In this document: positions 9,675-31,041 of the stretch, one piece after another
Layout of the letters: each line of letters opens with the position of its first letter
How positions within the stretch are numbered: the first letter of the stretch is position 1
Source: Candidatus Hydrogenedentota bacterium
Lineage (GTDB): Bacteria; Hydrogenedentota; Hydrogenedentia; Hydrogenedentales; JAJRTN01
Direction of reading: 5' to 3'
Length of the DNA: 32,166 nt
Assembly (NCBI GenBank): GCA_024278275.1
Contig: JAJRTN010000105.1
Span: 1-32,166 of the forward strand
Notes under the pieces: generated by a model
Told to the model about the DNA's origin: nothing
Databases searched by the model: none
The model's input: only the letters and a program-made list of their open reading frames with translations
Program-made: the position numbers and the translations under genes

Positions 9675-9800
9675 CTTAGTGGAGCGAAGCAAATGGGGGG
9701 CACGGCGTGAATGGCTGTGTCCGGGTAGAATCAGTTCGGGGCCGTGCCCCATCGGCGGCCGGGCGAGGGAAATACGGGAAACAGAGGAGATGCAAAACCC

Positions 9801-10664
9801 ATGAAACACTTTTTATTGCTGACTGTCATGGCCGTGGTCCTGGCGGGTGCACAGGCGAGCGCCCTCACGTATGCGGTCGAAGCCGAATACCTGGTAAACG
9901 GCGGGGTCGTCGATTCTGATTCCATGACAGGGCCGCCGCTGCCCATTGACGCCGAGGTGCTTTCGCCCATGCCGACGCACGACACGGGGCCGGACCCCGG
10001 CTTTGCGCAGGCATCGGTTGACGGCCTGGGCTTTTCGTCGGCCGCGGTGGACGGGATTTTCTGGAATGTGGAGCCGAGCAACACGTTGACGGCCACGGCG
10101 ACGACTTCGGAAACCGTGACAAACACCTCCGGCAACCTCATGAACTACGACTATGATTTCTGGGTGGCGGCACCCGAGTTGATTATCTCGGACTTTGCCG
10201 GTGCCGCCGCGGGCGACCCGGGCGCGCCGGTCATCAGCTACGTGCTGGATATCCGGTTGGATGGCGTGAGTATTTGGGGTTCTTCGGCCGTGTTGAACGG
10301 AGGCCTTGTGTCGCACACCCTCACGAAGACGGGGGAAGACCTCGGTGGAACCTTTTTCTCAGACCCGGGCTGGAGCGGTAATATTTTTGGATACCAATTC
10401 GATGCCTTCGCGGGGAATCTCGACCTGGGAAGTCTCAGTAACGGAGAGAGTCTTGTCCTGGAGACGTTTCTGACGGTAAGCGTCAACGCCGGTGGCTACG
10501 AGTTGGGCGGTGCGGCCAGCATACTGGATCCCGGTTCAACCGAAGGCGCCTTTGGTGGCATCGTGAACGGGAGCGGTGGCCCCGTCGTTCCGGAACCGGC
10601 CAGTTTGACGCTTCTGGGCCTGGGTTTGATCGGCATGACGGCGCGCCGTTTTCGCGGACGGTAG
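9801..10664 (+). CDS. PEP-CTERM domain exported protein
   Basis: A 287-residue secreted protein. A Sec signal peptide (MKHFLLLTVMAVVLAGAQASA) is followed by a beta-rich, Thr/Ser-rich body of unknown function. It ends with a textbook PEP-CTERM sorting signal: VPEP (263-266), a hydrophobic stretch (SLTLLGLGLIGMTA) and the basic tail RRFRGR. In known systems this signal is recognised by an exosortase, and the proteins often travel with exopolysaccharide or floc formation. Neither an exosortase gene nor an EPS cluster lies in the window. The ATG at 9801 was chosen because the signal peptide starts there and AGGAG lies 11 nt upstream; 19 further in-frame codons upstream are not signal-like. It is a single-gene unit ended by the terminator at 10703. 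Confidence 0.9.
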   Translation: MKHFLLLTVMAVVLAGAQASALTYAVEAEYLVNGGVVDSDSMTGPPLPIDAEVLSPMPTHDTGPDPGFAQASVDGLGFSSAAVDGIFWNVEPSNTLTATATTSETVTNTSGNLMNYDYDFWVAAPELIISDFAGAAAGDPGAPVISYVLDIRLDGVSIWGSSAVLNGGLVSHTLTKTGEDLGGTFFSDPGWSGNIFGYQFDAFAGNLDLGSLSNGESLVLETFLTVSVNAGGYELGGAASILDPGSTEGAFGGIVNGSGGPVVPEPASLTLLGLGLIGMTARRFRGR

Positions 10665-10744: not shown

Positions 10745-11448
10745 CCGGGCATCCGGCTTTGCCCTGCCCGTGTGCGTCCGGTGAACCTGAAAAGTGTAAG
10801 ATTATTTGAACACGGGCCTGGCCGGATGTATGAATTTCAAGCCTTTGTGTCGGTGTATTGAGGACGATATTCTTTGTTAAGCGATTTGTGTGCAAGGACT
10901 TAAATGGCCATCGGAGGCTGGGGTGCCATGCGATGGGATCCCCCGGATCCAGGCTGTTGGTTCAAATAATTGTACACACCAGGGGGGAGTTCCCGGACGT
11001 GGGTGGTCTTTTCAAGTCCTGTCCCATACGATGGCTGCGATTAGTGTGAATTATCTATCAAGAATTCTTTTCTATCTTTCCCCAGTATGGCATGCCCTTG
11101 CTCAAGGTACCTTTGACAACGATGGTGGCACGGTTTTGGCCTCCCTTGGCTTTCTTTCGAAGGTGTGCAAGGCTCATCGATGGAATGGTGGGCCATGCGA
11201 CGGTGGTTTCAGAAGGCACGCTGTCGCCTCATGGTTGAGTGCGGCGGAATGACGCGTTTGCTTTTCCCGGGTCCCCGTTTTTTCGTGGTGGAAACGACGG
11301 GTTCCGGAATGGGCGCCTTTATCATGCGTTCTTCTGCAGAAAGTTTTTTTTGATCCCTCAAATGTCTCCAATGACGTCTGTTGAAGCGCATGGGCGCGGT
11401 GGTTGTGAACAGCTTGGCGAAGGTACAGGAGGGGAAGGAGTGCAGGCA
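10745..11448. other. Roughly 700-nt intergenic region without a supported gene
   Basis: I see no credible coding region here. In-frame sequence continues upstream of 11449 to 11239, but it lacks protein-like features and has no better ribosome site. The region contains a strong sigma-54 promoter candidate at 11126. The rest is less GC-rich than the genes and carries no recognisable repeats or RNA gene. Confidence 0.5.
11126..11141 (+). promoter_or_regulatory. Candidate sigma-54 promoter for the repeat-protein genes
   Basis: TGGCACG-GTTT-TGGCC has a perfect -24 element and the invariant -12 GC, with one mismatch in the -12 box (TGGC for TTGC). The expected start is near 11152, about 300 nt before the chosen ATG at 11449. 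It is the second sigma-54-like site ahead of an exported-protein gene in this window, which makes chance less likely for both. Confidence 0.5.
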
Positions 11449-14097: not shown

Positions 14098-14176
14098 TGG
14101 GAAACTACCTGGAAAGAACCAGGCCTGTGAAGGCCGGAAATGCGCGCCCGTGAGGATGGGACGCGGGGAGATGTAC

Positions 14177-17100
14177 ATGTTGTCTCACGTGGAAAAGAAT
14201 CGTCGGCTCATGCCGGGAATCCTGTTGGCCTTTACCTTGGTCGCCGTGACCCTGGCGGCCGGCGCGGCGGAAACCATTTCCGGCCGGGTGACCAACGCCG
14301 GCACGGGCAATGGCATTATCGGCATTGACCTGGATGTGTTTGACACGCTGAACCAGCCCGTGGTGGTGAGCGGCGCGCGCACGGGGACCAACGGTGCGTT
14401 TACCCTGACCCTGCCCGGCCCGGGTGTCTACAAGGTGCGCGCCGATGCCAGCCTGGGCGACGGGTTTGTCGATCTTTTCTACAACCAGTCCTTCCTGCGC
14501 AGCGAGGCGCAACTGATTACCGTCAACGCGGGACAGGCCGTAACGGGTATCAACATGGCCCTTTCCATCGGCCATGAGATTTCCGGTCGTGTCACCGCCT
14601 CTGGAACGCCGGCGGCGGGGATTGATATGGACGTGTTCGCGGCGAATGGCGAGTTCCTCAGCGGCTATCCGGCCACCACGGCCGCCGATGGCACTTTTGT
14701 TATCGGCGCGCTTCCCAGTGGCGACTATTTTGTTCGTGCCGATCCCGATCCACTCCTCAACCAGTTTTACGTGCGCACTTACTTCGGCGGCGGCAGCGAT
14801 ATACCGGGGGCCACGGCGGTTACCGTGGGGAACGGGAGTGTCTCGGGCATCAACATTGACATGGCGCCCGGCGGAACCATTGTGGGCCGCGTGACGTCGG
14901 CCGACACGGGCTTGCCGCTGGAGGGAATCGACCTGGACCTGTTTCTGAGTACGGGCGCGCGCCTCCCCCAGACCGCCCGAACCGACGCGCAGGGATTCTA
15001 CGAGATTGGTCCCGTACCTGCCGAGGCGTATATTATCCGCGCGGACCCCAGCCTCACGCAGCCGTATGTGCGCGTCTATTACCCGGCGGCGGCCCGCCCG
15101 GCCGACGCTCAACCCATCACCGTCACCGCGGGGGGGCGTTCCCTGGGGATCAACATGGCGTTGGCGCCGGGGGGGACCCTGGCCGGCCACATACGGGACG
15201 GGCGAACGGGGCTGCCCATCGACGACGTGGATCTGGATGCCTTCGACGACCAGGGGCTGCGGGTGGACCAGAACGCCCGGAGCGCGGCCGATGGGAGTTA
15301 CGCGCTGGGGCCGGTGCCCGCGGGCGTTTACGTGTTGCGTGTCGACCCGTCACTGGGCCAGGGCTATCCCCGGATCTACCATCCCAACGCCGTGCGTAGC
15401 GCCGATGCCGTGCCGCTGTCGGTGGTGGCGGGAGCCCGGACGGACGGCGTGGACTTCGATATTTTTCGCGGTGGGAGCATCGCCGGAACCGTGACCGACC
15501 TGGCCACGGGCACACCCCTGGCCGACATCGATATCGATATTTTTGATGTGCTCGGTTTTCGTGTGGATCAGACGGCGCGCACCCTGGCCGACGGCACCTA
15601 TGAGATAGGTATTCTCAATGAAGGCGACTATGTGCTGCGCGTGGATCCCACCCTCGAACAGGGGTACCCGCGCACCTATTTCCCGGGCGTGCGGCAGCAA
15701 AGCGACGGAACTCCCATCACCGTGACGGAGAATGTACAAACCTCCCAGGTGGATTTTGCCCTCTCCCCCGGCGGCACCATCAGCGGAACGGTCCGGGATG
15801 CCCGTACGGGCACACCCCTGCCGGACATCGATCTTGACTGTTTCGATGCTCTGGGCGCGCGCGTCGATGTAAACGCCACGACCGGACCGGACGGAAACTA
15901 CACCCTTGGGATACTCGCGCCGGGCAGCTATTTCGTCCGGGCCGACCCAAGCCAGGCGCAGCTTTTCGCGGAGATCTTTTACCCGGGGCGCGCGGACATC
16001 AATTTGGCCGAGCCGGTGGTGGTCACCGCATCCACGGACACGGCGGGCGTGGATTTCGATCTGCCCTTGGCGGGCACCATTACGGGCGTGGTCCGGGATG
16101 CCGGCCAGAACCCGCTGATCGGGGTTGATATGGACCTTTACGACGCCACCACGGGGCAGCGTCTGCGGAAGAGCGCGCGCACGGATGCAAGTGGCCGATA
16201 CACCATTGCATCCCTGGCGCCGGGTGATTACAAGTTGCGCTGCGACCCCGATTCCACCATGGGGTACGCCCGCCTGTATTATGACGGGCAGGCGAGTCGG
16301 GGGCGGGCGGCCACCCTCGCCGTGGCGGAGGAGACGCTCCTGTCCAATGTGGATTTTCTTTTGCCCGCGGCCGCGTCGATTGCCGGACGCCTCACCGACA
16401 GTATCGACGGGACCCCCCTGGCCGACATGGACATCGACGTGTTCGAGGCGTTGACGCAAACCCATATGGATCAGACCGCCAGGACCGATGGCAATGGCGC
16501 GTACCAGGTGAACCTGTTGCCCCCCGGCGATTATACCGTTCGGGCCAACCCGGCGCTTCCACCCTTTGTTGATACCTATTACGAAGGTTCCGCTACGATG
16601 GAAAGCGCGACCCTGGTCACGCTCGCGGCCGGCTCCCGGCTTGCGGGGCTTGACATCGCCGTGCTTCGACAGGGCGCCCAGGATGACCTGACGCCCCCGG
16701 TGATCACCTTGCAGGGCGTGGCCGACATAACGCTGGAATGTGGAAACACCTACACGGAGCCGGGCTTCTCGGCGACGGACGACGTGGACGGTGATATCAC
16801 GGACCAGGTGGTGACGGGCGGGGACGCCATCGACGGCACGGCGCCATCGGTCGGAAGCTACACGGTCACCTACGATGTTCGTGACGCCGCCGGTAACGCG
16901 GCCGTGCAGGCGACCCGAACCGTAACGGTACGGGACACAACGGCTCCGTTGATATCCCTGTTGGGCGCGACGAGTGTGACGGTTTCGTGCGGCCAGGCCT
17001 ACACGGACGCGGGCGCGACGGCGACGGACGGGTGTGAGGGGAACCTCGACGGGCGTATTGCCGTGGGCGGCGACACGGTGGACACCACGACGCCGGGCAC

Positions 17101-17695
17101 CTACACCATCACCTACGATGTTCGTGACACTGCCGGTAACGCGGCCGTGCAGGCGACCCGAACCGTGACGGTACGGGACACGACGGCTCCGGAGATATCC
17201 CTGTTGGGCGCGACGAGCGTGACGGTTTCGTGCGGCCAGGCCTACACGGACGCGGGCGCGACGGCGACGGACGGGTGTGAGGGGAACCTCGACGGGCGTA
17301 TTGCCGTGGGCGGCGACACGGTGGACACCACGACACCGGGCACCTACACCATCACCTACGATGTTCGTGACACTGCCGGCAACGTCGCGCAGCAAGTGAC
17401 CCGTACGGTGCTTGTTGCGAACGATTGTGTCGGGGGCGAAGGTGAAGGTGAAGGCGAAGGCGAGGGTGAAGGCGAAGGCGAAGGCGAGGGTGAGGGTGAG
17501 GGTGAAGGCGAAGGTGAAGGCGAAGGCGAGGGAGGGGGGCCGTCCCCGGCGTGTTACGCGGCCTCAAAGGGATCCGACGTACCGCCCAACACGGGCGATA
17601 GCCTTCTTTTGCTGATGTTATTGGGCTGGCTCCTGGTTTTGGGTCTGAAAACCGGTCACGCCCCCGGCCGTGGTTCTTCTTCGAGGGAAGAGTGA
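14177..17695 (+). CDS. Large secreted repeat protein: eight carboxypeptidase-regulatory-like modules, three DUF5011-type Ig-like domains, Gly-Glu linker and C-terminal anchor
   Basis: A 1172-residue surface protein. A Sec signal (RLMPGILLAFTLVAVTLAAGAAE) leads into eight modules of the same type as the upstream paralog, with motifs GIDLDVF, DIDIDIF, LRVDPSLGQGYPR and similar. Three Ig-like domains of about 81 residues follow (PVITLQGVADITLECG..., YTVTYDVRDAAGNA), each with paired cysteines. Then comes a Gly-Glu alternating linker of about 33 residues, and a C-terminus with C1126, PPNTGD (1136-1141), a hydrophobic helix (1142-1157) and a basic tail from K1158. The tripartite end looks like a sorting signal; PPNTGD resembles a sortase LPxTG site with Leu replaced by Pro. 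ATG 14177 is chosen because GGGGAG lies 6 nt upstream. It follows its paralog by 79 nt and probably shares its promoter. Confidence 0.82.
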   Translation: MLSHVEKNRRLMPGILLAFTLVAVTLAAGAAETISGRVTNAGTGNGIIGIDLDVFDTLNQPVVVSGARTGTNGAFTLTLPGPGVYKVRADASLGDGFVDLFYNQSFLRSEAQLITVNAGQAVTGINMALSIGHEISGRVTASGTPAAGIDMDVFAANGEFLSGYPATTAADGTFVIGALPSGDYFVRADPDPLLNQFYVRTYFGGGSDIPGATAVTVGNGSVSGINIDMAPGGTIVGRVTSADTGLPLEGIDLDLFLSTGARLPQTARTDAQGFYEIGPVPAEAYIIRADPSLTQPYVRVYYPAAARPADAQPITVTAGGRSLGINMALAPGGTLAGHIRDGRTGLPIDDVDLDAFDDQGLRVDQNARSAADGSYALGPVPAGVYVLRVDPSLGQGYPRIYHPNAVRSADAVPLSVVAGARTDGVDFDIFRGGSIAGTVTDLATGTPLADIDIDIFDVLGFRVDQTARTLADGTYEIGILNEGDYVLRVDPTLEQGYPRTYFPGVRQQSDGTPITVTENVQTSQVDFALSPGGTISGTVRDARTGTPLPDIDLDCFDALGARVDVNATTGPDGNYTLGILAPGSYFVRADPSQAQLFAEIFYPGRADINLAEPVVVTASTDTAGVDFDLPLAGTITGVVRDAGQNPLIGVDMDLYDATTGQRLRKSARTDASGRYTIASLAPGDYKLRCDPDSTMGYARLYYDGQASRGRAATLAVAEETLLSNVDFLLPAAASIAGRLTDSIDGTPLADMDIDVFEALTQTHMDQTARTDGNGAYQVNLLPPGDYTVRANPALPPFVDTYYEGSATMESATLVTLAAGSRLAGLDIAVLRQGAQDDLTPPVITLQGVADITLECGNTYTEPGFSATDDVDGDITDQVVTGGDAIDGTAPSVGSYTVTYDVRDAAGNAAVQATRTVTVRDTTAPLISLLGATSVTVSCGQAYTDAGATATDGCEGNLDGRIAVGGDTVDTTTPGTYTITYDVRDTAGNAAVQATRTVTVRDTTAPEISLLGATSVTVSCGQAYTDAGATATDGCEGNLDGRIAVGGDTVDTTTPGTYTITYDVRDTAGNVAQQVTRTVLVANDCVGGEGEGEGEGEGEGEGEGEGEGEGEGEGEGEGEGGGPSPACYAASKGSDVPPNTGDSLLLLMLLGWLLVLGLKTGHAPGRGSSSREE
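16918..17403 (+). repeat. Near-identical 243-bp tandem duplication inside the surface-protein gene
   Basis: Units 16918-17160 and 17161-17403 are almost the same at DNA level over 243 bp (81 codons) and encode the second and third Ig-like domains. Differences include taacgg/tgacgg, cgttg/cggag and a divergent last ~20 bp. The preceding unit (16675-16917) is clearly related but more diverged. The pattern points to recent unequal recombination or replication slippage, so domain number may vary between strains. Confidence 0.85.
17434..17532 (+). repeat. GGNGAR hexanucleotide repeat encoding a Gly-Glu linker
   Basis: About 16 tandem hexamers of the form ggNgaR, with the third base varying between t and c, encode alternating Gly and Glu. 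The linker is strongly acidic, flexible and placed just before the C-terminal anchor, so it probably spans the outer layers of the cell envelope. Similar linkers are, to my knowledge, common in Hydrogenedentota and Lentisphaerota surface proteins. Length variation by slippage is likely. Confidence 0.9.
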
Positions 17696-17834: not shown

Positions 17835-19421
17835 ATGAAGAATTTTGGCGTTAAAGAGATTGGCCTTGCGTTGGTCATCGTGGCTCTCACGGGCGGGATC
17901 ATCGGGTACAAGGTTTTCGTGCTGGATTACTCCATGACGACCATCGAGCCGGAAGACGGTTACTATGTCCGGCTCATGATGAATGTCACCGGCAACGGGA
18001 ACGCCTTCAAACTGGGGGTTACGCTTCCACTCCAATCGGATCGGCAGCGCATCAAGTCCGAGCGCGAGTCTTCGGGAGGCGTATTCCGCTTCGGCATCAC
18101 GCCCAGCCGCGTGGGCCGCTGGCGGGCCGCCGCGCTTTCGGGCGAACACTCGATTACCTACAGTTTTTTCGCCCAGACGGAAGAGCGCACCTACGCGCTC
18201 CCCGAGAACCAGCCCATTCCCGAAAGCTATTCAAAGCAGCTTCGGGAATACCTGGGCGCCACGGATCGAATACAGTCCGATTCGGCCCTGATTCGCGAGA
18301 AGGCCTTTGAGTTGGCCCCGGAGGGCGCGGACCTTCAGTCGGCCCTGACGGCCATCTACAACTTTTGTTACAGCGAAGTGAAATACCTGAAGATTCGCGG
18401 GCCGACGGACGCGGTCACGGCGCTCAAACTGGGCGAGGCGTCGTGCAACGGGAAGAACCGGCTCATGGTGGCGCTGTTGCGGGCACGGGGCATCCCGGCG
18501 CGTATGACGAACGGTCTCATCCTGGAGAACAACCGGAAGCGCACCACCCACGCCTGGACCATCGCGCGGGTGGGGGATGAATGGGTTCCTTTCTGTCCGA
18601 CCAACGGTTACTTCGCCAGGATCCCGGAACATTACCTGGAACTGGCCCGGGGGGACATCGCCGTTTTCACGCACAGCAAGCACGTTGGTTTCGACTGGCG
18701 TTTCGTCATTCAGCGCCAGTTGAGCCACCGCGAGCAGGCGGTGTTGAGCAACGCGAGCAACCCCCTCAACATTCTTCACCTGTGGACCTCGCTGAAGGAC
18801 TACCACATTCCGCTTGATCTGATCATGATCATCCTCCTCATCCCGGTGGGCGCGACCGTGGTGGCCCTGGCGCGCAACGTCATCGGCCTGTTGCCTTTCG
18901 GTACGTTCATGCCCGCCCTGGTGGCGGTATCCTTTCGCGATACGGGTTTTCTTTTCGGCGCCGTCTTTTTCCTCGTGGTCATTGTCGTGGGGTCGAGCGC
19001 CAACTACCTGCTGATGAAATTACGGCTCCTCCATATTCCGAGGTTGGTGATCATTATTACCGTGGTGGTGATGGCGCTTATGATCCTGTCCATCGTGTGC
19101 ATCCGGCTTGGTCTGACCACGGGGGCCGCGGTCAGCCTGTTTCCCATGGCCATCCTCTCCCTGACATGCGAGCGTTTCACCCAGAGCATGTTGCAGGAGG
19201 GCTGGCTGCCGGCCGCGCGGCGCATGGTGGCCACGTTCACCGTGGCCGGCGGGTGTTACGCCGTGTACAGCCTGGAGTGGTTGCAGAACATCATCGTCGC
19301 TTTCCCGGAATTGCTGCTCATCAACATCGCGATCAACCTGGTGCTGGGTTCCTGGACCGGGGTCCGCCTGATGGAGCACTACCGTTTCCGTGATCTGAAG
19401 CGTGCTTCGGAATTGGCCTGA
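17835..19421 (+). CDS. Transglutaminase-like domain fused to seven transmembrane helices
   Basis: A 528-residue membrane protein of the family described as transglutaminase fused to 7 TM helices. A first helix (about 10-30) is followed by an extracytoplasmic beta-rich domain (31-160) and a transglutaminase core (about 165-280). The remaining helices lie in roughly 325-510, including MIILLIPVGATVVALA and LVIIITVVVMALMILSIV. In the core, GEASCNGKNRLMVALLRARGIPAR gives the nucleophile-position C204 and THAW gives H239. The third triad position, usually Asp before P-T, is Cys (C254, WVPFCPTNGYF). The family is often labelled inactive, but two of three catalytic residues remain here. The next gene, 10 nt downstream, is its usual ATP-grasp partner. 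Start ATG 17835 has only a weak GGTGAG nearby; the first helix begins directly after it. Confidence 0.88.
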   Translation: MKNFGVKEIGLALVIVALTGGIIGYKVFVLDYSMTTIEPEDGYYVRLMMNVTGNGNAFKLGVTLPLQSDRQRIKSERESSGGVFRFGITPSRVGRWRAAALSGEHSITYSFFAQTEERTYALPENQPIPESYSKQLREYLGATDRIQSDSALIREKAFELAPEGADLQSALTAIYNFCYSEVKYLKIRGPTDAVTALKLGEASCNGKNRLMVALLRARGIPARMTNGLILENNRKRTTHAWTIARVGDEWVPFCPTNGYFARIPEHYLELARGDIAVFTHSKHVGFDWRFVIQRQLSHREQAVLSNASNPLNILHLWTSLKDYHIPLDLIMIILLIPVGATVVALARNVIGLLPFGTFMPALVAVSFRDTGFLFGAVFFLVVIVVGSSANYLLMKLRLLHIPRLVIIITVVVMALMILSIVCIRLGLTTGAAVSLFPMAILSLTCERFTQSMLQEGWLPAARRMVATFTVAGGCYAVYSLEWLQNIIVAFPELLLINIAINLVLGSWTGVRLMEHYRFRDLKRASELA

Positions 19422-19431
19422 CGAGGGACTC

Positions 19432-20358
19432 ATGAAGCATCATCTCCGAAGTATCTTTGGCCTGAACCACCGCAACCGTGAACTGGTGGCGCGCTACAAC
19501 ACGCCCCCGATGATCGCGCTGGCGAGTGACAAGATCGCCTGCAAAGCGCGGCTGACGGCCTCGGGCGTCGCCACCCCCGCGTGTATCGCCGAGCTGCGGA
19601 CAACGCGTGATCTTCCGGCGATTTACACCGTACTTGAGCGGCAGGTCAATGGCTTTGTCGTCAAGCCCGCCCGGGGCGCCCAGGGGAACGCGGTGGCCCT
19701 GTATACCCATGCCCTGCCGGACCGCGTGCATCCCCAGCATGGGCAACCCATAAGCCGGAAAGACTTTGCCTTTTCCCTGGCGGCCATTCTCAGCGGCGAG
19801 TTTTCCGCGGGACGGCCCTCCGATGCCGTACTCATCGAGGAGCGGATCATCCCGGATCGATCCTGGATTCTGGAAGGCGTGCCGGGGGCGCCGGACTTGC
19901 GCGTCATCGTTTTCCAGGGTACGCCGATCATGGCCATGGCCCGTATCCCCACGGTGGCCTCCGAGGGTCGCGCGAACCTGCACCGGGGCGGTATTGGGTT
20001 GGGCATCGACCTGGTCTCGGGCCGCTCCACCCACGCCGTCTGGCAGGACCGAATCGCAAGCCATCACCCCGACACGGGGGCCGAACTCGCCGGGCGCTTC
20101 GTGGATGGCCTGGACGAATGCCTGGCCCTGGCCCGGCGCTGTTTCGATGCCGTACCCTTGGGCTATATGGGGGTGGACATCATGCTCGACCGCCACCGGG
20201 GCCCCCTGGTCATCGAACTGAACGCCCGGCCCGGCCTGGCCATCCAGATCGCGAATCTCAAAGGGCTGGGCGAGGTACTTGGCGGAAATGAACATTGTCT
20301 TGGCCGGCCCATGGCCTCCCCCGCCGCGGAACCGGCCTTTCCCGGGAACAACCCATGA
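19432..20358 (+). CDS. ATP-grasp ligase, RimK-related (alpha-L-glutamate-ligase-like)
   Basis: A 308-residue cytoplasmic ATP-grasp enzyme expected to join a carboxylate to an amine through an acyl-phosphate, as in RimK and related glutamate or peptide ligases. The nucleotide-binding lysine region is VNGFVVKPARGAQGNAV (K78). VLIEERII supplies the hinge. The metal-binding C-terminal motif is GVDIMLD...LVIELNARPGLAIQIAN, with D249, E262 and N264. These match the RimK-related family that accompanies 7TM-transglutaminase proteins. Start ATG 19432 follows GAGGGA by 4 nt and lies 10 nt past the membrane-protein stop. The longer in-frame start would overlap that gene. The TPR gene begins in its stop codon (ATGA). 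The natural substrate of this family is not known to me. Confidence 0.88.
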   Translation: MKHHLRSIFGLNHRNRELVARYNTPPMIALASDKIACKARLTASGVATPACIAELRTTRDLPAIYTVLERQVNGFVVKPARGAQGNAVALYTHALPDRVHPQHGQPISRKDFAFSLAAILSGEFSAGRPSDAVLIEERIIPDRSWILEGVPGAPDLRVIVFQGTPIMAMARIPTVASEGRANLHRGGIGLGIDLVSGRSTHAVWQDRIASHHPDTGAELAGRFVDGLDECLALARRCFDAVPLGYMGVDIMLDRHRGPLVIELNARPGLAIQIANLKGLGEVLGGNEHCLGRPMASPAAEPAFPGNNP

Positions 20359-22718
20359 AACAGATTATCGCCTTGCTCATCGTTACGTTGGCCGCCGTCG
20401 GTTGTGGCGGCGGAGGCTCCCGGCCCGTGGCCTCCGGGCCCCGCGACGATGGAGAAACGCCCGCGTGGGCGGAGCCTTCGGGCGCGGATGCGCGATATGA
20501 ACAGGCCCGGCGTGAAATGAGCGCGGGGCGGTATGGCGACGCCGTTCAAACGCTCGGGGACATCCTGTCCCGTCACCCCGAGGATCCGGCGTACTGGAAC
20601 GACCTGGGGATTTGTCATATGCGCCTGGGCGCATGGGAAGAAGCGGCGAAAAGTTTCCAATCGGCCCTGGACCGGGATCCCGCTTACTATAAGGCGGCTT
20701 TCAATCTCGGGCTGCTCCACGCACGCCGGGGAAACGACGCCGAGGCGGAAAAGGCGTACCGCGCTTCGCTGAAGATTAACAGCGCTTACGGGGAGGCACG
20801 CTATAACCTGGCCCTGCTCCTGCAACGGCAGGAACGCTTCGAGGAAGCGCGGGCGGAGTACCGGAAGGCCCTGCAAACCTCCCGGGCGGCGTGGTTGTAC
20901 AAGGCGCACTTCAACCTGGGCTTGATTGCCGCCCGTGGCGGCGATTTGAAGGAAGCGGTGAAACGGTACAAGCGGGCGGTACAGCTCAACCCGGGCTTTG
21001 CCGGCGCCCACCTCAATCTCGGGGTGTCCTACCTCGCCGCGGGAGATCATGAACAGGCCCTCAAATCGCTTCGGCGGGCGGAGGCGCTGGACCCCGAAGA
21101 CTACCGGATCCCCTGGAATGAAGGATTGGCGGTGCTTGCCACGGAGGGCCGTGCCGCGGCCGAGCCGTACTTCCTGAAGACCCTGGAACGGGAACCCGGT
21201 TACGCCCCCGCCCTGTTCAACCTGGGTTTGATCGCCTGGCACGCGGACGACCTGGAGGGCGCGGCCCAATGGTCCCATAAGGCCGTCGAGGCGTCGGTCG
21301 ATTATGCGGAGGCCTACTACATGTTGGGTAAGGTGGCCGCCCGGCGGAATGACCCGGAAGGGGCGCTTTCGGCCTATGAGCGGGCCTACGCCCTGGACCC
21401 GACCTACGGGGAAGCGGGCTTCAACCTCGCCCTGACCTTATCCAGGCTGGGGCTGGAGGAAGAAGCCACGAAGGTGTACGAGGCGCTTGGAAAACTCGAC
21501 CAGCCTCACGCGGAGGGATTGAACAACCTCGGAACGCTGAAGATGGATCGGGGCGATCCGGACGGTGCGCGGGAGGCGTTTCTCCAGGCGCTGCGGGCGG
21601 ATCCCGCCTACGCGGTACCCGCCTTCAACCTGGGTATTCTGGCTTTCCGCGCCAAGCGCTTTGAAGAAGGCGAGGCCCGGTTTCGGGAGGCCCTTGAGCG
21701 CGACCCCGCGTATGCGGAAGCGGCTTACATGGCGGGCAAGTGCGCCAGCGAGCAGGGCAAGACCCGGGTGGCCCTGGAGGCCTACAGGAAAGCCTTTGAG
21801 TTGGATCCCGCGTATGCCGAGGCCGGCTACAACCTGGCCCTGTGCCTGACCCGCGAGAATCGCCGCGACGAGGCGGTGGCGGTCTATGAACGCATCGCCC
21901 GGTTGGCGAAACCGCACCCGGAATCGCTTTACAACCTGGGGATCGAACGAATGCGGGACGGCCGGTGGGCCGACGCAGCCGGTCTTTTCCGCCGCGCGGT
22001 GGCGGCCAATCCCGATTATACCGAGGCGTGGTACAACCTGGGCCTGGCGGAATTGCGGGCCGACCGCTTCGAGGAAGCGGCGGAGGCCTTCAAGCGGGCC
22101 ACCGGGCAAGCCCCGAAGTATTACGAGGCATGGTTCAACCAGGCCATCGCCCATGCCCGGCTGGGCGAATACGCCGAGGCGGAGCGGGCCATGCGGAAGG
22201 CCCATGAACTGCGGCCCGGCCGGGAGAAGGCGGCCCGTTACCTGGCGCGGTATCTCAAGAAACTGGGCCGGAAAGACGAAGTCCTGGCCGTGTACGAACG
22301 GGCCTACGCCGCCGGGGCAAGCCACGAGGACCTGTTCATCGCCCTGGCCAAGAAGGCCGTGGCGGAGAAGGACGACGCACGGGCCGTGGATTTCTACCGC
22401 AAGGCCATACGGCTGGATCCCAAGGCCGTGACCTGTTACAACCTCGGTCTCGCCCTGCGCCGCCAGAACCGGCTTGAAGAAGCGGCGGAGGCTTATGGGC
22501 AGGCGGTTGCGTTGAAGGACACCTTTGAAAAAGCCTGGCTGAACCTGGGGTACGTGCGGCTTTATCTGAAGCAATTCGAGGCCGCCCGGTCGTGTTTCGA
22601 CCGCGCCCTCGCCCTCAAGCCCGGCTACGAAAAAGCGCGCGACGGCCTGCACGATCTTGAGGAAGCGCTTGAGGAAGCGGAAAAACAGTCCGCGGAAAAC
22701 GGCCCGACCGGCCCATAG
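20355..22718 (+). CDS. Large TPR-repeat lipoprotein
   Basis: A 787-residue protein. MKQIIALLIVTLAAVGC ends in a lipobox-like site (AVGC, C17), so it is probably lipidated and attached to a membrane outside the cytoplasm. From about residue 50 to 775 it is an almost unbroken array of roughly 34-residue TPR motifs (about twenty). Typical segments are AYWNDLGICHMRLGAWEEAA, YNLGLALRRQNRLEEAAEAY and KAWLNLGYVRLYLKQFEAA. Such solenoids serve as scaffolds for protein partners. The start overlaps the ATP-grasp stop by 4 nt (ATGA), so translation is coupled, and the next gene begins 15 nt after its stop. Context makes it a likely docking platform of the ligase/transglutaminase system at the envelope. 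Confidence 0.87.
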   Translation: MKQIIALLIVTLAAVGCGGGGSRPVASGPRDDGETPAWAEPSGADARYEQARREMSAGRYGDAVQTLGDILSRHPEDPAYWNDLGICHMRLGAWEEAAKSFQSALDRDPAYYKAAFNLGLLHARRGNDAEAEKAYRASLKINSAYGEARYNLALLLQRQERFEEARAEYRKALQTSRAAWLYKAHFNLGLIAARGGDLKEAVKRYKRAVQLNPGFAGAHLNLGVSYLAAGDHEQALKSLRRAEALDPEDYRIPWNEGLAVLATEGRAAAEPYFLKTLEREPGYAPALFNLGLIAWHADDLEGAAQWSHKAVEASVDYAEAYYMLGKVAARRNDPEGALSAYERAYALDPTYGEAGFNLALTLSRLGLEEEATKVYEALGKLDQPHAEGLNNLGTLKMDRGDPDGAREAFLQALRADPAYAVPAFNLGILAFRAKRFEEGEARFREALERDPAYAEAAYMAGKCASEQGKTRVALEAYRKAFELDPAYAEAGYNLALCLTRENRRDEAVAVYERIARLAKPHPESLYNLGIERMRDGRWADAAGLFRRAVAANPDYTEAWYNLGLAELRADRFEEAAEAFKRATGQAPKYYEAWFNQAIAHARLGEYAEAERAMRKAHELRPGREKAARYLARYLKKLGRKDEVLAVYERAYAAGASHEDLFIALAKKAVAEKDDARAVDFYRKAIRLDPKAVTCYNLGLALRRQNRLEEAAEAYGQAVALKDTFEKAWLNLGYVRLYLKQFEAARSCFDRALALKPGYEKARDGLHDLEEALEEAEKQSAENGPTGP

Positions 22719-22733
22719 CAGGAGTGGAAAAAC

Positions 22734-24380
22734 ATGTACCGTCCCCGGATCTCGCGACTAGCGGCAGGCATGCCGCTTCTTATCTTGTTCATGGCCTGTC
22801 CCCCCGCGATGGGCGCGCCCGAAAAAGTCGGTCCGGCGTTGGACGCCGCCATGGTCGCCCTGGCGGTGCCGCCGACACGCCCCGGCCATCCCTATGCCGC
22901 GACCGTGAAGCGCGTGTTTCGACTGGATCCCGACGCCTCCACCTGGCGGCCCGTCTTCGATCTGCCCCCGACGGCCACCCGGATCATGGGCATCGCCGGC
23001 TACGCCCAATCCTCCAAGGTGCTCTATGTCGTGCATGAAGGTGGGGTCGCCCGGACCGGCGATGGCGGGGGCTCGTGGACCACGGCCCTGCCGCCGGGTT
23101 TTCGTTCCGACGGTATTGTGGCGATCCGGGTCAGTCCCGCGGACCGCAAACACGCGGTGTTGCTTACCCGCGACCGTGCCTGGAGAAGCCGGGATTACGG
23201 ACTCACGTGGGAAACATTCACGATTCCCGGCGCGGAGGGCGCTTTCCGGGGAGCGGCTTTCAGCCAGGGCGATACGCCCTGGCTGACGGTTCTCGCCGGC
23301 AGGGGAGTCTACCATTCCCCCGACCTGGGCGACCACTGGGTATGCTCCGCGCGGGACGTGGACGGGCCGGGTCGCCTGGCCGCGTCCCGGGGCCTGTTGG
23401 CGCTACCGGTGGCGGGCGGCACGCCGAAGGTACGGCTGTACGACCTTTCCTCCACGGTTCGGTATCGCGACCTGGACCTCGCGCTGCGGGGGGAACCCGG
23501 CGCCGTGGCCCTGGATGACGGCGACCGTGGGGCCTTGTGGTTCGCCCTCGGGGGAGCCGTCTTTCTCCTGAACCTCCAGGTGGACGGCGCCGAACCGGAA
23601 TTGCTCTTCCAGGGCGATGGGGAGCTGCGGAACCTCACGGCCTGTCCCAAACTTCCGGAAACCCTTTTATGGACGCGGGAGGGGCAATTGTGGAAACTGG
23701 ACAACGCCTTCGGGGCGCGCGCCGAAGCCCTGCTCAAGCCCTTTCCCACCGTCGGCTTCACGGTGCTTCGGGGCGCGGGCGATTCCGTGCCGGACCCGGG
23801 AAACGTGGCGGCCATGCTGGTGAAACTGCGGGCAACCGAACCCTCGCTCCGGCGGACGGTGGCCGCCGCGCTTCGCTACGCCGATTACCACCCCGGCGAG
23901 GTCCAGAAGTGGCGGCGCAACGCGCGGCGCCGCAACTTCATGCCCACCCTGTCCCTGAAAGCGGGGAACCGGGATTATCCGGTAAGCCGGTGGACCAGCG
24001 TGACGAATACGGATCGCTTCGGTATCGACAGCATCGACGATATTCACCAGAGCGACCGGATCGAGCGGCTTGACACCTTCGGTGTCGAGTTGGAGTGGAA
24101 CCTGCGGGAGCTTCTTTTCGATAAAGACCAGGTGAAGATCAGCGAGGAAGCCCGCCGCCGGGCGGAACAACGCAACCAGCTTATCCGGGAGGTTACCAAA
24201 CTTTATTACACGCGTCTGGACCTGAAGGCCGAGATGGAACTTGGCCGGGACCGGCTTGATCTGAAGGAACGGCTGAACCTGGAGCTTCGTTTGCTGGAAG
24301 CCACGGATATGCTGAACGAGATTTGTGGCAACTATGTTCATTTTGGTGAAGCGCGTGAAGAAGACGCAACACCACGGTAA
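22734..24380 (+). CDS. Exported BNR/Asp-box beta-propeller protein with a C-terminal envelope-associated domain
   Basis: A 548-residue protein with a signal peptide (RLAAGMPLLILFMACPPAMGA). The N-terminal ~330 residues carry Asp-box turns TGDGGGSW, SRDYGLTW and SPDLGDHW, pointing to a sortilin/Ycf48-like propeller. The C-terminal ~180 residues change character: TVAAALRYADYHPGEVQKWRRNARRRNFMPTL is followed by VELEWNLRELLFDKDQ and the helical stretch NQLIREVTKLYYTRLDLKAEMEL. I recall similar ends in exported proteins of Deltaproteobacteria (Myxococcota and relatives) with a WDL-x-LLF strand and an EVTRLYFERR helix, but the function is unknown. AGGAG lies 9 nt before the ATG, 15 nt after the TPR gene, so it is co-transcribed. 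It may be an outer-membrane or periplasmic partner of the TPR lipoprotein. Confidence 0.7.
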   Translation: MYRPRISRLAAGMPLLILFMACPPAMGAPEKVGPALDAAMVALAVPPTRPGHPYAATVKRVFRLDPDASTWRPVFDLPPTATRIMGIAGYAQSSKVLYVVHEGGVARTGDGGGSWTTALPPGFRSDGIVAIRVSPADRKHAVLLTRDRAWRSRDYGLTWETFTIPGAEGAFRGAAFSQGDTPWLTVLAGRGVYHSPDLGDHWVCSARDVDGPGRLAASRGLLALPVAGGTPKVRLYDLSSTVRYRDLDLALRGEPGAVALDDGDRGALWFALGGAVFLLNLQVDGAEPELLFQGDGELRNLTACPKLPETLLWTREGQLWKLDNAFGARAEALLKPFPTVGFTVLRGAGDSVPDPGNVAAMLVKLRATEPSLRRTVAAALRYADYHPGEVQKWRRNARRRNFMPTLSLKAGNRDYPVSRWTSVTNTDRFGIDSIDDIHQSDRIERLDTFGVELEWNLRELLFDKDQVKISEEARRRAEQRNQLIREVTKLYYTRLDLKAEMELGRDRLDLKERLNLELRLLEATDMLNEICGNYVHFGEAREEDATPR

Positions 24381-24385
24381 CCGTG
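24373..24385. promoter_or_regulatory. Inverted repeat CACGGT-A-ACCGTG before the kinase gene
   Basis: Two 6-bp arms around a single base overlap the stop codon of the propeller gene, 84 bp before the histidine-kinase start. It could be an operator or activator site for separate control of the two-component genes. There is no T-run, so it is not a normal terminator. Confidence 0.3.
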
Positions 24386-24468
24386 TACGAGAACCGTTGA
24401 GGTAAGGACGTATTGGCCCGTACCCCGCGTTTACCCCGTGAACCCCATAAGGACCTGAACGGCAGGCG

Positions 24469-25812
24469 ATGACGGATCAGCCTCTCAAAGCGATACCGTT
24501 CGCGGTGGACACCCCATCGCCGCTGACCGTGGGCGGCGCCCTGCTCGCTCCCATGGATTACCCTACCTTTCGCAACCAGGAGTTGAGCCTCATCGGACTC
24601 AATCTCGTGGTGCTGGGTTTCCTGTTGCTCATCGATTTGAGTTTCTGGCCCTATATGGGCGTGCCGCACGCCATGCTTCCGCCGGTGCTTTTCGCCTTAC
24701 GTTTCGCCGAGCAGTGCGTGGAATGGTGGTTGTTGCGGCGGCGGACGCGGCCCATGGGCTGGCTGCAGGTTCGCCTCTACGCGCATTTGTCGATCTGGAT
24801 CAGTTTCTGTTTCGCCGCCGCGATCAGCCTGACCTCGAACTTTTCCGATGCCCACTACGCGGTGCTCCTGGTTTTGCCGCTTATCGCCGCCGGATTCCGT
24901 TTCAACCTTGCGGGCGTGCTGCTGGCCGTGGGGACCGCGGCGGCCTTGGCCTACATCGAGATCACGGTATACTTTACGCGCAACCCGCCTTTCGACCCCG
25001 AGGAGATTTTTGAAACAACCACCATGCTGCTGGTGTTTGTCGTGGTGGGCGTAATGGTGTGGCTCGTGGCCCGGCGCATGCGTTTCGACGCGCACCAGCT
25101 TCGGAAGGCCCTCGACGAACTGAATAAGACCCAGGAGAAACTGGGGGAAGAGGAGCGCCTGGCCGCCATCGGACGCCTCGCCAGCGCCGTGGCCCATGAG
25201 ATTCGCAACCCGGTGGGCATGATCGCCAGCGCCCTCGAAACGGCCCGCCGCAAGGAAAACGACCAGGCCATACGCCGGGAGTTTTGCGACATCGCGGCCA
25301 AGGAGTCGCGCCGCCTCGAGCGCATTACCACCGATTTCCTCGCGTATGCCCGAAGCAAGCCCCTGGAAGTCGTGACCAGCAGCGTGGAAACCACCCTGCG
25401 CTACGTGGCGAGCCTGGTTTCCCCCAGTCTCGAAGCGCGGGGGCAGCGGCTGGTGCTGCGCGTGGAGGGTCCGGAAGAGGTTCCGCTGGATCCCTTTCAA
25501 ATGCACCAGGCACTGCTGAATCTCATGGTGAACGCCATCCACCACCCCCCCCCCGGAGGGCGCATCATCCTCGGCAGCAAGCCGGCCCGTGGCGGCGTGG
25601 CGTTTTATGTGAGAAATCCCGGTGAACCCGTCGGGCAGCCGGAGGCCATCTTCGAGCCCTTTTTCACCACGCGGGCGCGAGGCACCGGTTTGGGGCTTTC
25701 CATCAGCCGAAAGATAGCGCGGGCCCATGGCGGCGACCTGCGTTTGAGTGAGAACAGGGCCGGGTGTGTCCGGTTCACCTTGACGGTGCCGCTGCACGGA
25801 CGGGAAGGTTGA
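24469..25812 (+). CDS. Membrane sensor histidine kinase
   Basis: A 447-residue kinase. Residues 40-200 form about five or six transmembrane helices (LIGLNLVVLGFLLLIDLSFW through TTMLLVFVVVGVMVWLVA) with little periplasmic sequence, so it probably senses a signal in or at the membrane. A short coiled linker leads to the HisKA domain with phospho-acceptor H243 in AVAHEIRNPVGM. The ATPase domain has the N-box LLNLMVNAIHHPPPGG, a degenerate G1 (VRNPGEPV), the F-box EPFFTTRARG and the G2 box GTGLGLSISRKI. A run of ten C residues (25545-25554) encodes part of the N-box loop. It is followed after 3 nt by its NtrC-type regulator. The upstream spacer of 88 nt holds an inverted repeat. I chose ATG 24469, with a GGCAGG close upstream. 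Confidence 0.92.
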   Translation: MTDQPLKAIPFAVDTPSPLTVGGALLAPMDYPTFRNQELSLIGLNLVVLGFLLLIDLSFWPYMGVPHAMLPPVLFALRFAEQCVEWWLLRRRTRPMGWLQVRLYAHLSIWISFCFAAAISLTSNFSDAHYAVLLVLPLIAAGFRFNLAGVLLAVGTAAALAYIEITVYFTRNPPFDPEEIFETTTMLLVFVVVGVMVWLVARRMRFDAHQLRKALDELNKTQEKLGEEERLAAIGRLASAVAHEIRNPVGMIASALETARRKENDQAIRREFCDIAAKESRRLERITTDFLAYARSKPLEVVTSSVETTLRYVASLVSPSLEARGQRLVLRVEGPEEVPLDPFQMHQALLNLMVNAIHHPPPGGRIILGSKPARGGVAFYVRNPGEPVGQPEAIFEPFFTTRARGTGLGLSISRKIARAHGGDLRLSENRAGCVRFTLTVPLHGREG

Positions 25813-25815
25813 TAC

Positions 25816-27213
25816 ATGGCACGGATTCTCATCGTGGAAGACGAAGAAAGCATGCGCAGGATCCTGTCGGTTCTCCTGCAGGACGACGGGTACGAAGTGG
25901 TGGAGGCGGATTGCCTGGCCGCGGCCCGCGCCCTGCTTCAGGCCGGTGACTTCGATCTGGTCATGACCGACCAGCGCCTGACCGATGGTGAAGGGATCTG
26001 CCTGCTGGAACAATGCCAGGATAGCGAGTCCCCCGTGCCGGTTATCATGCTGACCGCGTACGCCACCGTGGACCTGGCCGTTGAAGTGATGCGCAGGGGA
26101 GCCTTTGATTTCATTTCCAAGCCCTTCGTGCCTGAAACCGTGCTGACCGGCGTGCGCCGCGCGTGCGGGCACGGCAAGTTGCTGCGGGAGAATGAGCGAT
26201 TGAAGCGCGAGGTGCAGCAGGTGGAATACGGCAGTGGCGATCTGCTGGGAAAAAGTGACGCCATGAACGAGGTGCGCGGCCTCATCAAGCGCGCGGCGCC
26301 CACCGATGCCACCGTCCTGATTACGGGCGAAACGGGCACCGGCAAGGAGTTGGTGGCGCGGCTCATTCACGCCAACAGCCGGCGCGCCCGAGAGCCCTTC
26401 ATCGCGGTCAATTGCGCCGCCATGCCGGAGTCACTGCTCGAAAGCCAGCTCTTCGGTCACGAACGGGGCGCTTTCACCGGCGCCGACCGCGCCCGGAAAG
26501 GGCTCTTCGAGGCCGCCCATGGCGGCACCCTTTTCCTCGATGAAGCGGGGGAAATGCCCGCGTCCCTGCAGGCCAAGCTGTTGCGCGTGCTGGTGGATGG
26601 GGAAGTCTTCCGCATTGGCAGCACCACCCCCGTAAAGGTGGACGTGCGCATTCTGGCGGCCACCCATCGCGATCTTCATGCGCGGATGAAAGAAGACCGG
26701 TTCCGGGAAGATTTGTACTACCGCCTCGCCGTCGTGCCCATCCACATTCCGCCGCTTCGGGAACGCCCGGAAGACCTGGCCGACCTGGCCGCTCATTTCG
26801 GCGAACTCGTGGCCTCGGCGCTTGGTGTGCCCCGCCGGGATATCAGCCCCGGGACCATCGAGGCCCTGCGCGGGTACGCTTTCCCGGGGAACGCCCGTGA
26901 ATTGCGCAATATCATCGAGCGCGCTTACATTCTCGCCCGGGGCGAAACCATTCTGCCCGGGGACCTGCCTTTGGATTTGCCATTCTCCCGCGAGACCCTG
27001 CCGGAGGGCGGAGAACCGGACATTTTCCCCGATACCTTGCCCGAAGACATGGACCTGCGCACCTTCCTGGAACAAACCGAGGCCCGCCTGCTGGCCCGTG
27101 CCCTGGAGGAAAACGGGGGCAGGCAAGCCGCCGCGGCCCGTCAACTGGGTATTTCACGCAGCGACATGGCTTACAAGGTGCGGCGTCACGGTTTGCGCGA
27201 CCTGGTTTCCTGA
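25816..27213 (+). CDS. NtrC-type sigma-54-dependent response regulator
   Basis: A 465-residue activator with the three classic parts. The receiver (1-120) has phosphorylation site D52 in [10 protein letters not shown] and conserved K102 (SKPF). The AAA+ domain (about 143-375) has Walker A GETGTGKE (171-178), the sigma-54 contact loop GAFTGA (218-223), Walker [13 protein letters not shown] and the arginine-finger region [10 protein letters not shown]. The C-terminal Fis-type helix-turn-helix is [23 protein letters not shown]. All signature residues are present, so it should activate sigma-54 promoters when phosphorylated by the kinase encoded 3 nt upstream. Likely targets in the window are the sigma-54-like sites at 9659 and 11126; that link is inferred. 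Confidence 0.95.
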
Positions 27214-29688: not shown

Positions 29689-31041
29689 CTACGCCTTGAT
29701 GCAGTAGAGAAACTTGTCCGACCGCAGCAGGATCCGGTTGTCCGTGACCACCGGGCTGGCATTGAAAAGGCTGCCGTCTCGTAGTTCGTTGACGCTCAGG
29801 ATTTCGAACTCGGGCTTGGCGGCCAGCACGAACATCCGGCCGGAACGGTTCAGGTAATACAGCCGCCCGTCCGCTAGGACTGGTGAAGCATAGAACTGCC
29901 CGCCCCGATCCAGGCGCTCCTCGTAGACCAACTCACCCGTGTCGATTCGGGCACAGTAGGCCATGCCCCGGCTGTCGTGCGTCCAGTACAAATGGCCGTC
30001 GAGGTAAACCGGCGACGTGACGTTGGAGCCGGTATTGCGCGTCCACAGACGATGTGTCGCCGTGACATCTCCCCGGCCACCCGCCCGAACGGCCAGCGCG
30101 GCGGTTCCCGACCGGCCGCCCAGGAAGTATACGACGCCATCCGCGGCCACGGCGCTGGGAACCATGTACCAGGTGATGTCCGTATTGCAGGACCAAAGGG
30201 GCTTGCCCGACTCGGGATCGAAGGCAAGCACCTTGCCGTAGGTTGCCACCACAAGTTCTTCATCGCCCGATTTCGTTGTCACGACGAGCGGCGTGTTCCA
30301 GGCTTCCGTGATCCCCCCGGCGCGCCATTTCTCCGCGCCCGTGCGCCGGTCGAGCGCCACGAGCGACTCGTTTTCCACGCTGGCGTTGATGAAAACCATG
30401 TCTTCGTGCAAAACCGGTGACGCGGCCGTTCCCCAACTGTTCGTGTTGGAACCGACATCCGCCCGCCAGAGTTGCTTGCCTTGATGATCGTAGGCAAAAA
30501 CACCGGATTTTCCATGGAACACGTAGACGCGCTCGGAATCGGCGACCGGCGTACTCGCGGCATAACCGTGGTCACGGATACGCTTTTCTTCGGGCAGCCT
30601 CGCCTTCACCGGCTTGTCCCAAAGAATCGCACCATCCTCTCGCTGCAGGCAGACCAGGTGCCTCTTCAGGTCGTCGAGACGGCCCCCCGGCTCGCCGGGA
30701 ACATAATAGCCGGTGTAGCACGTCAGGTAGATGCGGTCCCCATAAACTATCGGACTGGAAGAACCCGCGCCGGGCAGCGGCACCTTCCACGCCAAGTTCT
30801 CCCCCTCGCTCCATGTCAGGGGCAACCCGCGGGCATGGCTAACGCCCATGCCGCCCGGTCCCCGAAAACGCGGCCAGTCGCCGTTTGCATCAATGGCACC
30901 CGCTTGTGACGCCGGGCCTGGCTGTCGTGAAGTCTCGCCCCGGACGGTCTCTCCACCATCAGGCTGCGCCGAACAAGCCGTGTTGATGAACACGCTCGAC
31001 AAAATCGTGACCGTGGCAATCCATCTTCCGAATCGGGCCAT
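29689..31041 (-). CDS. PQQ-repeat beta-propeller lipoprotein
   Basis: A 450-residue protein of the PQQ-like beta-propeller type common in Planctomycetota and neighbours. The N-terminus is a lipoprotein signal (WIATVTILSSVFINTAC, C23). DWPRFRGPGGMGVS and ENLAWKVPLPGAGSSSPIV follow, the usual opening of this group. Blades repeat A-G-W-like motifs: REDGAILWDKPV, HQGKQLWRADVG, RRTGAEKWRAGG, PESGKPLWSCNTD and DTGELVYEERL. Such proteins are often assembly or sensor scaffolds; no enzyme activity can be assigned, and PQQ binding is not implied. AGGAGA lies 6 nt before the ATG. A good promoter is visible at 31150-31178. It converges with the YyaL-family gene and is flanked by inverted 13-bp elements. 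Confidence 0.87.
   Translation of the reverse strand: MARFGRWIATVTILSSVFINTACSAQPDGGETVRGETSRQPGPASQAGAIDANGDWPRFRGPGGMGVSHARGLPLTWSEGENLAWKVPLPGAGSSSPIVYGDRIYLTCYTGYYVPGEPGGRLDDLKRHLVCLQREDGAILWDKPVKARLPEEKRIRDHGYAASTPVADSERVYVFHGKSGVFAYDHQGKQLWRADVGSNTNSWGTAASPVLHEDMVFINASVENESLVALDRRTGAEKWRAGGITEAWNTPLVVTTKSGDEELVVATYGKVLAFDPESGKPLWSCNTDITWYMVPSAVAADGVVYFLGGRSGTAALAVRAGGRGDVTATHRLWTRNTGSNVTSPVYLDGHLYWTHDSRGMAYCARIDTGELVYEERLDRGGQFYASPVLADGRLYYLNRSGRMFVLAAKPEFEILSVNELRDGSLFNASPVVTDNRILLRSDKFLYCIKA

Follow-up and report, generated by a model that had tools for sequence, protein, structure and literature searches.

The 32,166-base contig JAJRTN010000105.1 of a Candidatus Hydrogenedentota bacterium (assembly GCA_024278275.1; genome G000, 5.35 Mb, 96% complete), called the window throughout, contains a row of plus-strand genes around a membrane protein with a transglutaminase-like (TG) domain and an adjacent ATP-grasp ligase. 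The membrane protein A (17835–19421), a RloB homologue, comprises an N-terminal transmembrane (TM) helix, a TG domain predicted to be extracytoplasmic and a seven-transmembrane (7TM) part. It is followed after 10 nucleotides (nt) by B (19432–20358), an ATP-grasp ligase and RloC homologue. C (20355–22718), a TPR-repeat lipoprotein, overlaps B by 4 nt, and D (22734–24380), 15 nt further on, is an exported protein with a propeller (residues about 30–322) and a C-terminal domain composed of a helix, a beta-hairpin and a helical hairpin (355–531). After another 88 nt lies E (24469–25812), a membrane histidine kinase (HisKA/HATPase_c), separated by 3 nt from F (25816–27213), a response regulator with a receiver and a sigma-54 activator part. 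These six open reading frames were the subject of a preliminary description of this DNA, and all coordinates and spacings given there were confirmed. Its domain identities for A–F also hold (Pfam and NCBIfam, for D additionally an AlphaFold2 (AF2) model), but the limits that it drew for the unit are wrong at both ends. Upstream of A, U2 (11239–14097) and U1 (14054–17695) encode secreted repeat proteins on the same strand; for both, the start of the open reading frame is given since the start codon is uncertain. U2 contains seven CarboxypepD_reg stretches, matches its family with 1235.9 bits and has an EF-hand-like tail that scores below the Pfam cut-off. U1 contains eight CarboxypepD_reg and three Ig-like stretches (Pfam), a (Gly-Glu)16 tract near its C-terminus, and a Cys, a C-terminal TM-like stretch and a basic tail.

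A scan of a contig collection (84,980 species), which was seeded with A and detects close relatives only, yielded three further loci. L032 is a contig of a Candidatus Hydrogenedentota metagenome-assembled genome (MAG; G026) from the order of the window, L033 belongs to a genome placed in the same order (G028, 84% complete), and L034 comes from a genome recorded as Verrucomicrobia (G068). All three contain U, A, B, C and D in this order on one strand, with identities to the window proteins of 58–68% for A, 53–56% for B, 40–42% for C and 33–37% for D. L032 has one U upstream of A, with a 4-nt overlap between them, and another one after D; in the window, both U genes precede A. The conserved unit is U-A-B-C-D; U1 and U2 belong to it, E and F do not. 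The linkage of TPR and propeller genes to the ATP-grasp/7TM pair, as proposed in the preliminary description, is thus found in every relative, and the check suggested there, co-occurrence and gene order in other genomes, turned out positively for A-B-C-D and negatively for E-F. By starting at A, however, that description omitted U, although U keeps its place as C and D do.

The distribution within the phylum is narrow. PF14402, the 7TM family, occurs in 3/68 phylum genomes searched (G000, G026 and G028), which represent three different families. A full-length D alignment scores above 800 bits in these three and at most 37.3 bits elsewhere in the phylum; the U alignment exceeds 480 bits in the same three and reaches at most 103.7 bits in the others. 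Both alignments were built with these three loci included, so high scores are to be expected there; what is informative is the lack of comparable matches in the other genomes. Only the best candidates per genome were scored (13 of up to 231 for U, 20 of up to 28 for D), so that a U-like gene elsewhere may have been missed.

A and B are, as judged by profile matches and architecture, homologues of Pseudomonas RloB and RloC, in line with the recurrent gene pair recognized in the preliminary description. In A, a TG-like domain (Transglut_core PF01841, 59.7 bits, cut-off 23) is fused to a PF14402 7TM part (161.9 bits, cut-off 25), which is the RloB-type architecture; the NCBIfam RloB model (NF052267) gives 146 bits, below its curated cut-off of 900. 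B, directly downstream like the adjacent ATP-grasp protein RloC, matches PF14397 with 175.7 bits (cut-off 31.4). According to PMC12239564, the Rlo system of P. aeruginosa consists of the retropepsin RloA, the inactive TG-7TM protein RloB and the ATP-grasp protein RloC, and A-B are adjacent in the same order as RloB-RloC. What the two systems share is a TG-like domain on a 7TM protein beside an ATP-grasp protein; local matches between cassette and canonical loci are just 24–36% identical for A and 31–39% for B.

For comparison, a canonical sample was taken from the phylum of the L034 genome. PF14402 was present in 42 of 387 genomes drawn; three of these (G068, G186 and G253) score below 200 bits, and the other 39 look like canonical RloB. 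We examined 32 of the 39, namely 30 loci (L055–L084) together with G096 and G312 (L103 and L104), leaving out G079, G311, G138, G070, G077, G308 and G305. Two named controls, Aeromonas caviae (a stretch without annotated features) and Legionella adelaidensis, brought the total to 34. In the record of the latter, the order is RimK/LysX family protein, inactive transglutaminase, alpha-L-glutamate ligase-like.

The first difference between cassette and canonical loci lies in the TG domain, whose state had escaped notice in the preliminary description. Cys204 (codon 18444–18446) and His239 (18549–18551) of A align with a Cys and a His of the TG-like structure 3isr from Cytophaga hutchinsonii, and Cys254 (18594–18596) with one of its Asp residues; these three are the established catalytic positions of the TG fold. 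Both Cys204 and His239 are present in 4/4 cassette A proteins and in 0/34 canonical RloB sequences; the canonical L103 has a Cys four residues further on, without the His. The common TG core of 3isr and A covers the extracytoplasmic part alone (profile 85–257), and 3isr has no 7TM part. Among the six pairs of cassette proteins, the active-site stretch 196–262 is on average 82% identical, compared with 71% for the TG core (165–265) and 63% for the 7TM part, which makes it the best conserved stretch of the protein. Among the 76 canonical pairs (of 136) whose 7TM parts are 50–72% identical, the TG core averages 21% and the 7TM part 54%, and the TG core exceeds the 7TM part in 0/76. From this contrast in aligned sequences we conclude that the active site is held under selection in the cassettes and can drift freely in canonical RloB. 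For A, the AF2 model is of poor quality as a whole (mean predicted local distance difference test, pLDDT, of 57), and active-site geometry is therefore not claimed. Residues 151–220 mostly reach 82–91, with Cys204 at the start of a helix there, and the best structural match of the model is again 3isr, which is named a putative cysteine protease.

The second difference concerns the protease. A PF05618 (RloA-type) match was found upstream of A in 17/17 canonical neighborhoods fetched; the two genes overlap by 37 nt at the closest and lie 653 nt apart at the farthest. With a model derived from these 17, an RloA-type gene is detected in 28/30 short loci (L055–L084); as 15 of the 17 genomes also belong to the 30, this count is not independent. 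In the two remaining loci, the gene is 653 nt distant (G303) or the contig starts at or within A. Overall, 31/32 canonical genomes have an RloA-type gene upstream of A, and the remaining contig is cut at A. No such gene was found in the window, L032, L033 or L034. In G000, G026 and G068, no PF05618 match passes the cut-off; the one match in G026, at 12.8 bits, is at chance level. The absence of a retropepsin-like protease noted in the preliminary description is thus seen at the locus and, at this cut-off, in the whole of G000. G028 has one PF05618 gene on another contig (L112), next to a gene that combines RimK and RimK N-terminal domains; in view of this neighbor and the lack of a signal peptide to the eye, it is RimB-like. 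The RimK-RimB pair of ribosome modification resembles the cassette in its ligase of the ATP-grasp superfamily, and classic RimK has a retropepsin-type partner; in contrast to the cassette it includes no TG-7TM protein, and RimB is cytoplasmic (PMC12239564).

Taken together, the sequences place the locus beside the Rlo system as a sister branch, in which the TG domain apparently works, U, C and D are fixed additional partners and no protease was found. A tree of B separates the window type from the canonical and divergent pairs with a support of 98/100; it is unrooted and could not be rooted because the RimK outgroup is too distant. Regarding function, PMC12239564 reports for P. aeruginosa that mutants without the three RloA proteases are rescued when RloB or RloC is lost as well; growth under hypoosmotic stress is restored fully, other traits partially. 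These genetic data place RloA, RloB and RloC in a single pathway, and RloA is reported to cut glutamate-rich sequences (same source). This rescue suggests a pathway order of RloC (synthesis), RloB (membrane step) and RloA (removal). In Shewanella, disruption of an inactive-TG 7TM gene altered vesicle output (PMC12096838).

C contains many TPRs, and its N-terminus reads as lipobox-like (LAAVGC, by eye). Like PrsT, the TPR lipoprotein of XrtA/PEP-CTERM systems (TIGR02917), it is a long TPR lipoprotein, but with 272.3 bits it remains below the cut-off of 312.2, and TPR scores are generic. The AF2 model of D (mean pLDDT 68) is confident for the propeller and of low confidence for the C-terminal part. 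The propeller aligns with known propellers at VIA-align Z of 25.8–27.1, one of them (1nr0) titled seven-bladed, and the best Foldseek match is Ycf48 (5oj3), of the Ycf48/BNR propellers. In the C-terminal part, for which no PDB sequence match was found up to E 10, the order of helix, beta-hairpin and helical hairpin recalls the OEP (TolC) family. Pfam OEP (PF02321, cut-off 22) scores 19.9 bits with the whole of D and 20.5 bits with the C-terminal part, and 2/4 members match at any level. D might be a TolC-type channel, but these scores are weak and the pLDDT of this part is low.

Four divergent A-B pairs (L085, L086, L109 and L110) lack the Cys and keep the Asp. L086 and L109 retain the His, and L085 lacks it; for L110 two alignments disagree, one showing the His in place and the other displacing it by one column. 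The contig of L085 breaks off upstream of the pair, and an FKBP gene lies downstream. In L086 (1546–6553), the row consists of a peptidase C25-like gene, the A homologue, with which it shares 4 nt, and the ATP-grasp gene; the C25-like score is 26.2 bits for the whole protein (cut-off 23), with no single stretch passing. One PF05618 gene was found elsewhere in G564 and in G186. A peptidase partner of A-B pairs is common, not universal. An alternative pairing of 7TM protein and ATP-grasp ligase is present in L111 (7166–10725), where a gamma-glutamyltranspeptidase, a PF14402 7TM protein without TG domain and an ATP-grasp protein of the D-Ala-D-Ala-ligase type lie in a row; since the TG domain is missing, the Cys in the alignment of this protein is an artefact. 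In the window (29689–31041, minus strand), L085 (11145–12329), L109 (3009–4592) and L110 (2288–3655), genes for PQQ/BamB-type propellers are found at most about 10 kb from A-B. Such genes are common, so this nearness may be chance.

For the cassette we propose a substrate, a chemistry, a transport route and roles of the partner proteins as follows. B would build a glutamyl-type amide or a short peptide with ATP in the cytoplasm, and A would pass or present this product across the inner membrane. At the outer face, A would cleave or transfer the product with its Cys204-His239 domain, a step that in canonical loci would fall to the separate secreted peptidase RloA. On the side of the outer membrane, C and D may provide a scaffold, and U, the secreted repeat proteins, may be clients or cargo. 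U stands directly upstream of A, in the slot of RloA in canonical loci, and is by this positional analogy a plausible client of the pathway. We give this reading, a five-family envelope cassette on a sister branch of Rlo in which the TG domain of A is a working thiol enzyme, a probability of about 0.4. Several observations weigh against it. The third catalytic position is Cys instead of Asp in 4/4 cassettes, and full TG activity is consequently not assured. His239 lies in a stretch of the AF2 model with pLDDT below 50. B stays below the cut-off of TIGR02291 (alpha-L-glutamate ligase-like; 275.3 versus 314.2 bits), with most of the profile covered. In L109 and L110 the Cys is missing, no RloA-like gene lies nearby, and the flanking genes that were scanned with Pfam are no peptidases (PQQ-propeller, DUF1552 and one without match); the same is true of L085 as far as its contig reaches upstream. 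Hence the reciprocity between dead TG domains, lacking the catalytic residues, and RloA is not universal. Absence of RloA from MAGs that are 84–96% complete, a range that does not cover G068, is no proof, and only four cassettes are known, all from MAGs.

Part of the same evidence would also fit a TG domain that is purely a hydrolase. As a cysteine peptidase it would trim or degrade the exported product, a one-protein replacement of RloA, and U, C and D would serve a neighboring surface function. The presence of an RloA-type gene in nearly all dead-TG genomes and in none of the live-TG cassettes as far as found, the C25-like gene in L086 beside a TG domain without Cys, and the name of 3isr all point in this direction. 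However, such a reading leaves U, C and D as fixed partners unexplained, and L109 and L110 lack both the Cys and a recognizable peptidase alongside; we consider it unlikely, though closer to the mark than any other alternative. Slightly less probable in our view is that Cys204, His239 and Cys254 are kept for non-enzymatic reasons, for instance a Cys204-Cys254 disulfide, redox sensing or metal binding. The TG domain would then be a sensor or binding domain, as may also hold for canonical RloB. The invariant Cys at the third position is consistent with this since two nearby cysteines could pair, but the residues surrounding Cys and His are preserved as they are in a TG-like structure, and the Cys sits at a helix start as mentioned above.

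In a more specific version of the proposed thiol enzyme, the live TG domain would covalently attach the glutamyl amide or peptide made by B and exported by the 7TM part to U, with C and D as assembly platform. This is improbable as it stands. If true, dead-TG Rlo systems would be derived versions without the transfer step, which need RloA to clear the product. Candidate substrate features in U gave no general rule. U proteins are built of CarboxypepD_reg repeats, rich in Asp and poor in Lys (0.4–1.5%). The Gln of a repeated DP..QGY motif was considered as TG acyl donor; the motif is frequent in U1, U2, L033 and one U of L032 (L032b), but rare or absent in L034 and the other (L032a), and is therefore not a family rule. 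The (Gly-Glu) tract of U1 was likewise rejected as a dedicated substrate, because such tracts occur genome-wide in G000: coding-type tracts give 467 overlapping matches of a four-repeat pattern versus 4 in a reversed-pattern control. Of the further tract proteins read, the two complete ones (L151 and L152) resemble U1 at the C-terminus, where a Cys and a spacer precede a TM-like stretch and a basic tail; a third runs off its contig. This shared C-terminus looks like a sorting signal. NCBIfam CTERM models remain below their cut-offs in the U proteins. The type IX secretion model TIGR04183 exceeds its cut-off in 4/4 U proteins scanned, but its matches lie within the repeats and not at the C-terminus and are thus taken as cross-matches.

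The kinase and the activator were regarded in the preliminary description as components of a six-gene regulated system, A-B-C-D-E-F, under its own control. For this speak the close spacing of E-F to D on the same strand and a -24/-12-like site with one mismatch at 11126–11140, upstream of U2, which is a lead only. However, no E or F homologue was found beside D in L032, L033 or L034, although the contig of L032 extends just 0.35 kb beyond the second U and that of L034 about 2.2 kb beyond D. The sensor half of E (N-terminal 230 residues) matches in 8/68 phylum genomes at E up to 1e-5, that is in G000 and in seven genomes without the cassette, and was not found in the cassette genomes G026 and G028 (the latter 84% complete) in a genome-wide search that covered E but not F and did not extend to G068. 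Given these neighborhoods and this distribution, E and F are best read as neighbors instead of members, and the kinase/regulator pair was rejected as part of the cassette. Sigma-54 control was rejected as well, because the -24/-12 pattern (up to two mismatches) is not enriched: 41 sites were found versus 35.8 expected, and 19/100 shuffles reach 41. The six-gene system is consequently the least probable of all readings, and very improbable in itself.

Both its name and its curated entry describe RloB as an inactive transglutaminase. A branch that keeps Cys and His under strong conservation, with no RloA found, offers a handle on the function of the family. A live domain can be trapped and assayed, the fixed partners U, C and D suggest substrates, and the pattern of dead TG with RloA versus live TG without RloA provides a testable rule. 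No mention of the live-TG branch was found in titles and abstract openings on RloB/RloC, inactive transglutaminase, amidoligase and Hydrogenedentes, a range with most subscription journals outside its scope, so that an earlier mention is possible, for instance in the 2009 amidoligase survey by Iyer and co-workers. The available part of PMC10318531 contains nothing on the A-B family.

Elsewhere in the window, predicted sigma-70 promoters (3 versus 2.6) and terminators (14 versus 12.3) are not above the numbers in shuffles. At the contig start, positions 1–1282 carry the 3' portion of a 23S rRNA gene, along with a 5S rRNA gene. The protein encoded at 9744–10664 has a PEP-CTERM motif at its C-terminus (27.2 bits, cut-off 20.7), and a gene of the IS200-like Y1 transposase family (41.1 bits) lies on the minus strand near the contig end (31414–32016).

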